From contig JAMORD010000030.1 of the NCBI GenBank assembly GCA_027063755.1, forward strand, positions 1 through 11,812: 11,812 nucleotides of DNA, written 5' to 3'. Within the stretch, counting starts at the first letter, position 1. Each line of letters opens with the position of its first letter. The translations under genes and the position numbers were made by a program. The DNA is from a bacterium. GTDB lineage: Bacteria > Coprothermobacterota > Coprothermobacteria > Coprothermobacterales > JAADFF01. Below, piece after piece: positions 1 to 11,812 of the stretch. A model generated the notes under the pieces. That model was not told the origin of the DNA. It saw only the letters and a program-made list of their open reading frames with translations, and ran no database searches.

Positions 1-900
1 GGTCTTAACATTATCCTCAAGGGTCTTAGCACCTTTCAGTAGATCATCTGCCAATTTATCTTGTTTCTGGCTACCCTGTGTAACCCTCTGGGAAACGGCA
101 TCTACTGTCTCTGCCAACTTAAGAAGATTATCAGTAGAACGACTAACCTCCTCAGTAGAGGCTGTTAGCTCTTCTGAGACTGCAGCAAGGTCCTCTGCCA
201 TAGAAGACAGTTTCTCAACATCGGTGGCCGTATCTTGTAAGCTATGGGCTACCTCTTCTCCACTGCGTGTTGCCTCACCAAGGGCTTCAGTTGTAGATTT
301 CACATCCCCAGCCAGTCTGCTGGCAAACTCAGAAAGTCCAGACATAATCTCCTCAATGCGGCCAACAGATTCTGTAGACATCTCTTCCAGCTTTCTTATT
401 TCTTCTGACACAACGGCAAACCCTTTACCGGCCTCTCCGGCACGGGCTGCCTCAATAGCGGCATTGAGGGCAAGGAGATTGGTCTTCTTGGCAATATTTC
501 TGATCTCTTCTATGATAGAACCAACCTCAGATGACACTTTGGAAAACTCTTCAGTTAATGCATTAACCTTTTGCATCTGCTGGTTAAGATTGCTGAAGGT
601 TGCGATAACAGACTGCAAATTCTGGATATTCTCCTTCGTCCTATCTTGCATTGATATAGAAAAGTTACTAAGGGCTCCAGCACTGTCGGCGAGAGATTGG
701 GAAGCTTTACGAATGCCATCTATGTTATCAGAAATCATCGCCGTTGCCCCCGTCAGCGTATCCACCTCTTTGCTAAGATTATTGGAGACATTGGACATAT
801 CCTCTGCAAGATTAGACACATCTGTACTCACTCCCATAACCGTAGTCATAACACTATCAATAGCCATAGCTGTCTGTTCAACGCCACGAAGCACCTCTTC
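1..900 (-). CDS. Methyl-accepting chemotaxis signalling domain, partial at the left edge
   Basis: The reverse complement of 900 to 1 is one uninterrupted frame of 300 codons that encodes a typical methyl-accepting chemotaxis protein (MCP) cytoplasmic domain. The hairpin tip that binds CheA and CheW is clear at about 504-433, with the hallmark [18 protein letters not shown] followed by [13 protein letters not shown]. Glu/Gln/Ala/Ser-rich helices on both sides carry plausible methylation sites. The frame is open at base 1, so the C-terminus lies outside. Upstream in this frame a TAA at 903-901 blocks it, and the natural N-terminal partner is the 7TM frame, one base out of register. The first internal ATG is at 867 and a GTG lies at 894, but neither has a properly spaced SD, so independent translation looks unlikely. 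Either the gene is frameshifted or the deposited sequence has lost one base. Confidence 0.88.
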
Positions 901-2057
901 TTAGACTGTAAGGCCTCCTGCGTAGCTTCATGGGCTTTTCTGTATACATTTGAAAAGTCTATAAGCAAGGCTATGGCAGAAACAACAACGGCCAAGAGCA
1001 TGCCTATAGCTACAGGATTCAAAATAAGATGAATAACGCCAAGTGCACCTAAGATACCAAAGATATAAGAAAGGCCCATAAAGGCCAAACCGCCAAGAAT
1101 AAATCTCTCTGCAACCCCTTCAGCCAACATAATGTAATAACCTGAGGTGTAAAAGTATAACAACAGCATGAAAATATCCATTATTTTTATAAAAGTTTGA
1201 AAACCAGCATAATTGGGAATAAGAAAACTCAGCACCACCAAGCCATAAAAAACATATAGTAGTTTCTCAAACCAAGGCTTCAAATCTCCTCTTATAAACA
1301 TCAACATTGCTTGCAAAAACATAGTAGCACCAACAACCATGGCAACATCGCGGATCTTTTTCATTGTAAAGTAGTCAATAGGTAAATAAAACACACTTTC
1401 TCTCAGTGTTGTGACATATACAATAATAAACGCCAAACCAAACAACAGATAGCTCTTTCTCTCTCTACCAGTAAGAAAATACAGCATGATAAAAAGCAAT
1501 CCAACCATTACCATAACGGCACCATCAGCTATAAATATACCCTGATGCCAGAAATTATTGACATATTTATACTCATATGCATTCCAGCTATCATCGGTGA
1601 TAAATGCAGGCTGGGTTGTAAAACCATAGCCATATTTATAAGAAAGGTCTATCTCTATCCTGTGTGTGCCGGGAATAAGCTTCATAGGGAAAATCTCAGT
1701 GACAGGGGCCGAGTTGACATACGCCGCTTTGCTCTTCTCTATCTGCCCTACAAGATTATCATCAACAACAACTCTATATCCTCCACCGGCTACAAAGTTG
1801 GGTATAACAAGATAATATACATCTGCCTTATCTACACTAATTGTCGTCCACAGAGATACCTTTGTAAAATCAGACCTGTAATCCTCAACAAAGCCAGAAA
1901 CTTCCTTAGCCCCTGTAGCATGCCACTTGTCAATGACAGTAGTAGGCTGATACCTATCCATAGACAGTGTGGCCACAAAGCCAAAGTATGCACCCACTAT
2001 AATCAGAAACAACACAAGAAATATCAGGACATTCTTTACAACCCTCATGATAAGCAC
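846..2057 (-). CDS. 7TM receptor half of a frameshifted chemoreceptor
   Basis: This frame encodes the sensory and membrane half of a chemoreceptor. An N-terminal membrane helix (about residues 8-30) precedes an extracytoplasmic, probably beta-rich domain (about 35-170). Seven hydrophobic segments follow between about 175 and 368, then a short helix ending near K386. The layout resembles 7TMR-DISM-type receptors; that family name is an inference from architecture. After K386 the frame departs from any sensible continuation and ends 17 codons later in a junk tail, while the coiled-coil methyl-accepting domain continues directly in the neighbouring frame from position 900. The frame opens with GTG at 2057; an ATG at 2048 (codon 4) is an equally good start, and neither has a strong SD. 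A weak leftward promoter lies just upstream. The gene diverges from the diguanylate cyclase operon. As read, it would lack its output domain. Confidence 0.8.
896..908 (-). other. Frameshift junction in the chemoreceptor gene
   Basis: On the minus strand the 7TM frame reads TCT AAG AAG AGG, while the MCP frame reads TAA GAA GAG GTG. Adding one G (TCT AAG GAA GAG GTG) would give S-K-E-E-V and join the two halves into one continuous helix. This fits a single-base loss. No X-XXY-YYZ slippery heptamer is present, so programmed -1 frameshifting is not supported. Confidence 0.75.
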
Positions 2058-6640: not shown

Positions 6641-7507
6641 CTATACCTCCTTTATACGTCTCAGTTTTTCGTTTAGGCTCTCAAGACGACTAATCATATT
6701 TCTACTATGCCTAAGAACCTTCTCACTCTCTCCAAGGATATCATCTATATCCTTTTTTATATGGGAAACTTTTTGCAGTGTCTCCTTGTGCTTTTGCGAA
6801 GCATCTGCCAAAGATTTCATCATGTATGCAGAGCGAATAAATGCATAAAGCGATGTAGGACCTACCATATATACACCCTTGGAAAACGCATAGTCTACCA
6901 ACGCAGAATCTGAAACAATCTCATTTAGTATAGCATCTGATGGCACATACATTAGGGCAAACCCTGTATCAGAATAGGGCACATATTTAGAAACTTCATC
7001 TATACGCCTTTTCACCTCAGAGCTATCACCATATGTAAATTTACTATCTACAGGTACCTCAACGATACCAGACCCCATATTCAGTTTTAGAAGCACATCT
7101 ACACGGTAAGGCCCCAATGATACCTGCGTTTCATACTCACCGGGCAACAGTATACGCTCAAGGAGAAACTGTAGGGCCATCTCACCACTGCGTCCTCTAC
7201 TGCCCACAATACTCTCATATAGCCGGCCAATTTTAGGGGATATCTCCTGCAAAGAGCGAGATACCTGGGACACCATCTGAACACTATCAAACACATGCTT
7301 ATCTACATGGTCAAGAACCCCAATCTTGCCATCAATCTTACCCAATGCCACATTACCTTGCTGTACCTGTCCAACGAGGCTATCCACCATATCTTGCAAT
7401 CGCCTTATCTCTTCTCCCAACCGTTTCTTTTCAGATACATACCACAGTGTTAGCATAATGTTGTATAATAAAAAGACAACCAGTGAAACACCAAAAAACC
7501 ATTCCAT
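6641..7507 (-). CDS. rmuC: RmuC-family DNA recombination protein
   Basis: RmuC proteins are membrane-anchored coiled-coil proteins with a PD-(D/E)xK nuclease-like fold that limit rearrangement at inverted repeats in E. coli. This 288-residue copy has an N-terminal membrane helix (about 4-24), a coiled coil (about 26-100), and then the family core: RGRSGE at 104-109, a conserved Asp at 137 and the nuclease-like DSK at 154-156. Later come ALMYVPSDAI and the signature VGPTSLYAFIRS, followed by a second coiled coil to the end. It is much shorter than E. coli RmuC (about 475 residues), mainly through shorter coiled coils. The ATG at 7507 is preceded by GGTGGTGA. No convincing minus-strand promoter was found upstream, so transcription may start within or beyond the small-RNA locus, or read through from tetR. 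Confidence 0.9.
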   Translation of the reverse strand: MEWFFGVSLVVFLLYNIMLTLWYVSEKKRLGEEIRRLQDMVDSLVGQVQQGNVALGKIDGKIGVLDHVDKHVFDSVQMVSQVSRSLQEISPKIGRLYESIVGSRGRSGEMALQFLLERILLPGEYETQVSLGPYRVDVLLKLNMGSGIVEVPVDSKFTYGDSSEVKRRIDEVSKYVPYSDTGFALMYVPSDAILNEIVSDSALVDYAFSKGVYMVGPTSLYAFIRSAYMMKSLADASQKHKETLQKVSHIKKDIDDILGESEKVLRHSRNMISRLESLNEKLRRIKEV

Positions 7508-7525
7508 ATACTCACCACCTACCTA

Positions 7526-7554
7526 TTGACATATAATTGCAACTTTGGTAGAAT
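7526..7554 (+). promoter_or_regulatory. Consensus sigma70 promoter of the predicted small RNA
   Basis: TTGACA at 7526-7531 and TAGAAT at 7549-7554 are separated by exactly 17 bases. This is a perfect -35 box and a 5-of-6 -10 box, pointing rightward, with an expected start at about 7560-7562. No plus-strand gene lies downstream before the terminator at 7626-7657, so it should drive a short untranslated transcript. It sits 18 bases upstream of the rmuC start codon on the opposite strand. Confidence 0.8.
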
Positions 7555-7562
7555 ATTATCAC

Positions 7563-7628
7563 GAAATAAGGGAACATAGGAGAGGAACCACCTCCCTTCC
7601 CCCTCCCCTCCCTCCTATGAAATAAGGG
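7563..7628. repeat. GAAATAAGGG direct repeats flanking an inverted repeat
   Basis: GAAATAAGGG occurs at 7563-7572 and again at 7619-7628, 56 bases apart. Between them lies the inverted pair CATAGGAG / CTCCTATG (7575-7582 and 7612-7619). The first copy forms the RNA's 5' tail; the second links the first hairpin to the terminator stem. Confidence 0.8.
7594..7612 (-). other. Potential G-quadruplex motif upstream of rmuC
   Basis: The minus strand reads GGGAGGGGAGGGGGAAGGG, four G-runs of at least three with loops of one or two bases. It fits the standard intramolecular G-quadruplex pattern with very short loops. It lies about 87-105 bases before the rmuC start on the rmuC-sense strand; the plus strand is the C-rich loop of the predicted small RNA. 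Confidence 0.7.
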
Positions 7629-7657
7629 CACCGAGGGACGGTGCCCCTTTGTGTTTT
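7626..7657 (+). terminator. Intrinsic terminator of the small RNA
   Basis: GGGCACCG (7626-7633) pairs perfectly with CGGTGCCC (7639-7646) around an AGGGA loop, giving an 8-bp GC-rich stem followed by TTTGTGTTTT. On the minus strand the same stem is followed only by TTATTTC, so it works best rightward, but could partly terminate or attenuate tetR transcripts heading for rmuC. Confidence 0.85.
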
Positions 7658-7667
7658 ATATGCAGCT

Positions 7668-8195
7668 TTATGCACAAAACACTGCATTATGCAAGAATTT
7701 TTTCAATTTCTCGCCATCCATAGGACTTCTCTCTATCCATATGCAAATAAATGTACCCAGCAGTACAGATGCCCCTTCAAATGTCGCCTGTCCACCAAAC
7801 ATAAATATAAAGGCAATCAGCCGATCAATCAGCCTTTTGCGAAGGGTTTCTTCCTCTGCTATGGCACGGGCAAATATACGCCACAGCTGAGGAGAGTGTT
7901 CTTTTTCCCTCATAACCGAAGATATTAATATATCCAGTGCTTTTTCAGCATCAGAGGCACTCTCCTCAGCATCCGTAAGCATCATGCGAAATTTCTCCAA
8001 AGCACTATCTACAATATGTTGCCACAAACTCTCCTTTCTGTCAAAGTATTGGTAAAATGTGCCCTTGGTAAAACCGGCTATCTCCATAATCTCTTCAATC
8101 TTTATCTCGTCAAATTTCTTTTGCTCCATAAGTTTTAGGGCAGTTTCCGCTATACGATCGCGTATTGTCTCCCTATAGCTCTGTCTTCCACGCAT
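7668..8195 (-). CDS. TetR-family transcriptional regulator
   Basis: A 175-residue TetR-type repressor. The N-terminal DNA-binding domain is clear: a first helix with RDRIAETALKLMEQ, then the helix-turn-helix IKIEEIMEIAGFTKGTFYQYF and the family's typical RKESLW continuation. The C-terminal helices should bind an inducer and dimerise; the ligand cannot be predicted. The frame is open from a GTG at 8204, but the ATG at 8195 is preferred because AGAGG lies about 10 bases before it and too close to the GTG. The ATG is one base after the stop of the hydrolase gene, so tetR is the last gene of the yigZ-hydrolase-tetR operon and probably controls that operon, possibly from the gap at 9408-9524. Confidence 0.9.
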   Translation of the reverse strand: MRGRQSYRETIRDRIAETALKLMEQKKFDEIKIEEIMEIAGFTKGTFYQYFDRKESLWQHIVDSALEKFRMMLTDAEESASDAEKALDILISSVMREKEHSPQLWRIFARAIAEEETLRKRLIDRLIAFIFMFGGQATFEGASVLLGTFICIWIERSPMDGEKLKKFLHNAVFCA

Positions 8196-8196
8196 G

Positions 8197-8793
8197 CTAT
8201 CCACCTCTTTTATATAAATGATGAGTCTTCAATATAAATGGCCTTCCATGACCGGGATATATGAGTGTATCACCGGGCACAGCCTCCATAAATTTTCTTA
8301 TAGACATACGCATTTTTGCACTGCTACCACCAGGCAGATCAGTTCTACCTATGCCATCGGCAAAGAGAAAATCCCCTACAATGGCAACATTCTCATCGGG
8401 AAAATACAAGGAGATACTACCCGGTGTGTGGCCCGGTGTGTGATAGACCATAAATGATATATCACCCAGCGTATGCATACCCTCACACATATATGAAGGT
8501 CGCACACTGACGGTGAGCGGGGCAAACAATCCCCGAAGGGAACCATTCAGCATGGGATCAGAAAGCATGGGAACATCGCCCCTATGAATATACACGGTAT
8601 CTACAGGCATAAGAGGAACCCCAAGAATATGGTCCCAGTGGCCATGGGTCAGCACTACATATAGATGTCCCTTAAGCATACCCAGTGATGCCAGATCACT
8701 ACATGCAGGGTCTATTACAATAGTGGTATTTTTATGGGTAATAACAATCGTGTTTGTCTGCAGTGGTCCACACGGGTGCACCTGTATCTTCAC
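8197..8793 (-). CDS. Metallo-beta-lactamase-fold hydrolase, glyoxalase II-like
   Basis: A 198-residue stand-alone metallo-beta-lactamase-fold enzyme. All metal ligands are present: THGHWDH at 49-55 (His50, His52, Asp54, His55), His122 in HTPGHTPGS, Asp141 in GDFLF, and His182 in YPGHG. The GIGRTDLPGG segment (147-156) is typical of the YcbL/glyoxalase II-like branch, which usually hydrolyses thioesters; the substrate here is unknown. The start is GTG at 8793 with GGAGG seven bases upstream. The GTG shares its first base with the TAG stop of the upstream gene (TAGTG), indicating tight translational coupling. The distal tetR starts one base after its stop. Length is normal for the compact members, without the C-terminal glutathione-binding domain of classical glyoxalase II. 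Confidence 0.92.
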   Translation of the reverse strand: MKIQVHPCGPLQTNTIVITHKNTTIVIDPACSDLASLGMLKGHLYVVLTHGHWDHILGVPLMPVDTVYIHRGDVPMLSDPMLNGSLRGLFAPLTVSVRPSYMCEGMHTLGDISFMVYHTPGHTPGSISLYFPDENVAIVGDFLFADGIGRTDLPGGSSAKMRMSIRKFMEAVPGDTLIYPGHGRPFILKTHHLYKRGG

Positions 8794-9407
8794 TATGACA
8801 CCTCCACAAGGGTACTCCCTTTAATATCTATCTGTACACCATCAAGGTGCTTTAGGCTCCCCACCAGTTTGTCATACATCTCTTTGTCAACCTTTAGCGT
8901 CCACCTAACAACCTCTTCATAACGGGGAGACAGCTCTCTCACATCTATGCCCAGAGAGCGAAGAATACCATCTATCTTCACATCGTAGGTATGGGTAATC
9001 TCCACAATATATCCCTCACGGGCCTCTGCCACGCCTGCCTTTTCTATAACAAGCTTGGCTGTATGACCATAGGCATCAATAAGCCCCCTCTTACCTAACT
9101 TTATGCCACCAAAGTATCTAACAACACATATAACCCCATGGGTCACACCGGCCCCTTTAAGGGCTCTAAGGATAGGAGGTCCCGCAGTACCTGCAGGTTC
9201 TCCTGCATCGGAATAGCCCTCTACCGTGTGTATAACATATGCCCATGCCACATGTGTAGCATCGCTATACTTTTCCCGCACCTTGACAATAAAATCTTTG
9301 GCCTCATCTTCTGTCATAACAGGTGATGAGACACCTATAAATACTGACCGTTTAATGTGATATTCTACCTCAACCTGTCTTCTCAATACCTTCATGTTCA
9401 TCACCAT
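8793..9407 (-). CDS. yigZ: YigZ/IMPACT-family protein
   Basis: A member of the widespread YigZ/IMPACT family (yvyE in Bacillus), 204 residues long, the usual size. The signature elements are in order: KRSVFIG (19-25), DATHVAWAY (49-57), SDAGEPAGTAGPPIL (66-80) and VVRYFGGIKLGKRGL (95-109), followed by a ferredoxin-like C-terminal domain. The eukaryotic relative IMPACT modulates the kinase GCN2; the bacterial role is not well defined, though a link to translation or RNA has been proposed from structure. It is the first gene of the operon with the hydrolase and tetR. The frame opens with ATG at 9407, which has no SD; the ATG at 9395 (codon 5), preceded by GGTGAT, may be the true start. The opposite strand upstream carries the ATPase promoter. 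Confidence 0.9.
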   Translation of the reverse strand: MVMNMKVLRRQVEVEYHIKRSVFIGVSSPVMTEDEAKDFIVKVREKYSDATHVAWAYVIHTVEGYSDAGEPAGTAGPPILRALKGAGVTHGVICVVRYFGGIKLGKRGLIDAYGHTAKLVIEKAGVAEAREGYIVEITHTYDVKIDGILRSLGIDVRELSPRYEEVVRWTLKVDKEMYDKLVGSLKHLDGVQIDIKGSTLVEVS

Positions 9408-9502: not shown

Positions 9503-9524
9503 AAGTGTATCGGAGGTGAAATAG

Positions 9525-11794: not shown

Positions 11795-11812
11795 GGCCGT
11801 ATCCCTCCAGAG

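Follow-up and report, generated by a model that had tools for sequence, protein, structure and literature searches.

A strongly conserved C-rich small RNA of Dictyoglomota that probably covers Shine-Dalgarno sequences

What is the function of an RNA loop that reads almost like the 3' tail of 16S rRNA, but is borne by a small intergenic RNA? Such a loop (GGAACCACCTCCCTTCCCCCTCCCCTCC, positions 7584–7611) lies in the 11,812-nucleotide stretch analysed here (the window), which is one contig of a 1.5 Mb draft genome. The preliminary description regarded it as a decoy of the ribosomal anti-Shine-Dalgarno (anti-SD) sequence. Judging from the sequence and its comparison with known systems, we consider it likely that the loop is the pairing region of a C-rich small RNA, about 95 nt long, that acts in trans and independently of Hfq and covers Shine-Dalgarno (SD) sequences. 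We call it Hfq-independent because Hfq was not found in any of nine genomes of the phylum.

The loop belongs to an unannotated, stand-alone gene on the plus strand (7561–7656), intergenic and with no open reading frame of note inside it, which is delimited by promoter and terminator signals. The promoter (7526–7554, plus strand) combines TTGACA, a 17-nt spacer and TAGAAT with a TG ahead of the -10 box, agreeing with the consensus at 11 of 12 positions, and it is kept as TTGACA/TAAAAT in a sister genome of the same genus. The 5' end, placed at about 7561, is inferred from its position 7 nt past the -10 box, while the 3' end falls within the T-rich tract of an intrinsic terminator. The hairpin of the latter, GGGCACCG-AGGGA-CGGTGCCC followed by CTTTGTGTTTT (7626–7646, plus strand), carries the sole substitution noted in the RNA, its loop being AGAGA in the sister genome. 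Transcription as a stand-alone unit is thus predicted from signals present in both genomes. In an Rfam scan of the window, the small RNA had no match at the gathering score, so that no known alternative RNA accounts for it. The flanking genes both lie on the minus strand: rmuC diverges from the RNA gene (6641–7507; PF02646, E 5.8e-27), and a TetR-family regulator gene converges on it (7668–8204; PF00440, E 8.7e-09). The end of the TetR gene also holds clustered ATGCA repeats (ATATGCAGCTTTATGCAC...CTGCATTATGCAAG, 7655–7700), mostly kept in the sister species. Elsewhere in the window, a 7TM-type receptor gene (846–2057, minus strand) seems frame-shifted at 846–905 with respect to a chemotaxis signalling domain on the same strand (about 1–905), representing either a pseudogene or a sequencing error.

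Conservation sets this RNA apart from its surroundings. Gene order on the sister contig (JAADFF010000085) is the same across the aligned window, and the RNA is 98.9% identical between the two species, compared with 73–88% for the genes of the window. An identical run of 84 nt (7552–7635) forms the most conserved stretch of the window, whereas after shuffling of the alignment columns (500 shuffles) the longest identical run had a mean of 35 and a maximum of 54. The conservation of the small RNA gene is certainly far beyond chance; together with the promoter-to-terminator unit, it makes the locus very probably a small-RNA gene, as had been proposed. The RNA is present in two uncultured Dictyoglomota genomes of one genus, the sister genome being the only other carrier found. 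Outside the genus, searches by DNA, pattern and covariance model returned no convincing homolog, either in the phylum (seven other genomes) or in some 50 genomes from further afield, and an exact scan of viral contigs was empty. The matches obtained were rejected as chance-like, for example one sitting in a coding region (L063) and one that is a terminator after a transporter gene (L070).

The predicted fold presents the C-rich sequence in a largely open loop. An 8 bp stem (7575–7582/7612–7619, plus strand), with arms CAUAGGAG and CUCCUAUG, is extended past a bulged A by three further pairs and closes a loop of 22 nt, in agreement with the loop of about 22 nt on an 8–11 bp stem described at the outset. 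The proposed pairing region is the C-rich, UCCC-type tract CCACCTCCCTTCCCCCTCCCCTCCC (also written CCACCUCCCUUCCCCCUCCCCUCCC; 7588–7612, plus strand), which is predicted to be mostly unpaired. When the full-length RNA was modelled between 37 and 70 °C, the mean unpaired probability of the tract was 0.58–0.82, varying with temperature and with the half considered. Structures competing with the open loop use the 5' AAGGG and the stem GGAGAGG, and in the model an alternative hairpin partly covers the loop; in an RNA modelled from 7575 onwards, the CCACCUCCCUUCC half becomes nearly fully open. The claim that the loop is accessible and not closed by pairing is therefore borne out by the model, though the folding energy of the hairpin is only modestly better than that of shuffled sequence (z -1.7). 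The evidence for the hairpin is the folding model, the two orthologs being nearly identical. Besides the tract, each genome sample contains just one other C-rich stretch of this kind.

The likeness to the 16S tail is real but mostly compositional. The segment CCACCTCCCTTCC (7588–7600) differs at three positions from the usual tail TCACCTCCTTTCT, agreeing at 10 of 13, and it shares with it the anti-SD-like word CACCUCC (CACCTCC at 7589–7595, plus strand). Neither this assembly nor its sister yielded a 16S gene, a common situation in metagenome bins; in relatives from the order the 16S sequence terminates with GGATCACCTCCTTTCT, so the usual tail is the correct comparison. Shuffles of the same 25-nt loop, which preserve its composition, matched at least 10 of the 13 tail positions in 5% of cases (P 0.05) and shared a 7-nt word with the tail in 11% (P 0.11). 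The resemblance thus hardly goes beyond that expected of a pyrimidine tract, and its supposed unusual character is not supported. Retention of CACCUCC by homologs, which had been proposed as a test, is seen in the one ortholog; it is non-discriminating because nearly the whole RNA is identical there.

These results bear directly on the decoy proposal, according to which the RNA copies the 16S tail, competes with the 30S subunit on many mRNAs and so acts as a global brake on initiation. The shared tail positions, the conserved CACCUCC and the many pairable SDs speak for it, including the GGAGGTG at 8805–8799 and 9512–9518 and the GGAGGG at 11808–11803, which are located as the preliminary description had them. 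Against it, besides the shuffles, most of the tract (CCCUUCCCCCUCCCCUCCC) is unlike the tail and would favour G-rich leaders selectively, and a single-copy RNA would presumably need a very high abundance relative to ribosomes. Since binding to mRNA SDs is the usual mode of C-rich small RNAs, mimicry of rRNA is not required, and all that speaks for a general ribosomal decoy would equally be seen with any RNA directed at SDs. We consider the decoy very unlikely. More doubtful still is a global anti-SD imitator that sets the overall initiation rate without Hfq, or one that titrates a protein reading the 16S 3' end.

Pairing with gene-start regions was evaluated on samples of 618 kb (sister genome) and 469 kb (this genome), in which a simple script predicted the genes, with approximate starts. 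SDs are canonical in both genomes, GGAGGTG being common. Against 593 start regions of the sister genome, the loop had a mean duplex energy of -15.3 kcal/mol, compared with -13.95 (sd 0.75) for shuffled loops; the natural order beat 197 of 200 shuffles, the remaining three reaching its mean. Strong pairing (below -25 kcal/mol) was found in 5.7% of start regions and in 0.2% of coding stretches. The complementarity to SDs therefore exceeds what composition provides, with a modest effect, and these energies support SD-directed pairing. The RsaE/RoxS-like action also mentioned in the preliminary description fits a loop able to pair with SD regions in this way. In the two samples, no single target stands out: the best individual energies were equalled by 23 of 200 shuffled loops, and in 85 ortholog pairs pairing energy predicted leader conservation no better than shuffled loops did.

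Among conserved candidates, the strongest lay upstream of an aldehyde:ferredoxin oxidoreductase gene (PF01314), in a leader whose last ~80 bases before the start are identical in both species. This leader (L119:906–1014, plus strand, with the same leader in L195) matches the Molybdenum/Tungsten riboswitch RF01055 at 35.9 bits (E 3.6e-7), marginally below its cut-off of 36. Both G-rich blocks are held in the riboswitch's own structure, one of them in its stem. The leader was rejected as a conserved small-RNA target, the riboswitch accounting for its conservation and its G-richness. An apparent anti-SD helix of the UCACCCUC/GAGGGUGA type is also visible in this riboswitch, where UCACCCUC can mask the SD. 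Two further leaders, one before a DUF554 gene (GGAAGGGGAAGGAGG[G/T]ATAGGG) and one before a nitronate-monooxygenase-type gene, are putative targets and stand as candidates only. The DUF554 gene is divergent from a Mem_trans gene in both the sister genome (L127:3270–3340) and this one (L198); the two SDs are unusually G-rich in the sister genome (GGAAGGGGAAGGAGGG and GAAGGGGAGGGG), and that of DUF554 is kept here as GGAAGGGGAAGGAGGT. Perfect loop complements of 11–13 nt at terminators (L047/L056, L055) were set aside as G-rich terminator arms, probably incidental. Among them, L047:1501 and L056:1501 show a terminator-like hairpin whose arm GGGAGGGGAGGGG is a 13-nt perfect complement of the loop; the two species seem to have it at equivalent gene boundaries.

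Three other readings do not involve SDs. The C tract could bind a protein such as Rho, S1 or a cold-shock protein, which the RNA would titrate; the tract is indeed a long, largely unstructured run of pyrimidines, and Rho is present in both genomes. About 25 nt is, however, little for Rho to load on, and the tract sits inside a closed loop; the order of the loop also raises SD pairing over shuffles, an order that a protein reading composition would not need. We regard such titration as unlikely. Quite unlikely, too, is that the conserved item is a DNA structure or the opposite strand, either as a minus-strand G-quadruplex or as a G-rich segment of a tetR-rmuC transcript. The complement of the tract does hold a G-quadruplex-type motif (GGGAGGGGAGGGGGAAGGG, 7594–7612, minus strand), the only one with short loops (1–3 nt) in 469 kb of this genome, the sister genome likewise having one in 618 kb. 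A precedent exists in Neisseria pilE, where a G-quadruplex has an associated small-RNA promoter and hybridisation of the RNA with the C-rich strand is proposed to free the G-rich strand (PMC3547852). Here the transcript itself is C-rich, the opposite of the pilE arrangement, and a pilE-type RNA was rejected on this ground; moreover, the conserved block is a plus-strand promoter-to-terminator unit, and a minus-strand promoter-like site was not found near the element.

Sequestration of CsrA through GGA motifs (within GGGAA, AGGAG and AGGAA) is extremely improbable, even though CsrA is present in both genomes. Of these motifs, two are located in the stem or next to it; the sister species lacks the GGA of the terminator loop, owing to the change from AGGGA to AGAGA.

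The preferred reading remains a small RNA directed at SDs. Mechanistically, the C-rich loop would pair with the G-rich SD regions of a set of mRNAs, as suggested by complementarity and by the known class. The SDs concerned would contain more G than ribosome binding demands (GGGAGG, GGGGAGG, GGGGAAGGAGG), and pairing would block 30S binding or alter mRNA stability, without Hfq. Bacillota provide the best-known C-rich small RNAs of the SD-covering type. With a strongly conserved case in Dictyoglomota, for which the search for Hfq was negative, it seems that this solution arises wherever the SDs of mRNAs are G-rich and other G-rich sequence in them is scarce.

Compared with the characterized members of this class, the RNA would share the mode of pairing and differs in architecture. 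Rfam covariance models, including those of RsaE/RoxS, FsrA, LhrC and other small-RNA families, gave no match at the gathering score; among matches to bacterial C-rich small RNAs with E up to 10, only FsrA was on the right strand (11.7 bits, E 6.5, far under its gathering score of 80), and this weak match probably reflects composition. RsaE/RoxS of Staphylococcus and Bacillus inhibits translation through C-rich regions that pair with SDs (PMC4409812); the proposed SD-directed C-rich pairing is alike, but several short regions there stand against a single uninterrupted 25-nt tract within one loop here, in another phylum. In FsrA of Bacillus, a C-rich motif likewise binds SDs, but that RNA needs the chaperones FbpA/B/C and is Fur-regulated (PMC9410917). 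IsrR of Staphylococcus directs single-stranded C-rich regions against SDs, two of them in hairpin loops (PMC9410917); a loop-borne C-rich sequence is common to both RNAs, while a sequence relation was not found (no Rfam match). LhrC of Listeria binds a GGGAG leader through UCCC motifs in loops, with an alternative loop structure reported (PMC4132741); it is multicopy with three binding sites, whereas the RNA described here is single-copy and has no match to the Rfam model. The csRNAs of Streptococcus aim short unpaired anti-SD sequences at translation initiation regions (PMC3091779), but carry them in the segment that separates two hairpins, mostly accompanied by an anti-AUG, instead of in a hairpin loop with no adjacent anti-AUG as here. 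In RepG of Helicobacter, a C/U-rich loop pairs with G-rich leaders (PMC8295292), that loop being the terminator loop and not, as in our case, a separate hairpin. The best reading of these comparisons is that the RNA would work like RsaE/RoxS, FsrA, IsrR, LhrC, the csRNAs and RepG while standing outside all Rfam families. It represents a new RNA family, though one of a known kind, and its C tract is unusually long. No small RNA of Dictyoglomota is described in the literature searched, so that the phylum now has a concrete RNA to probe.
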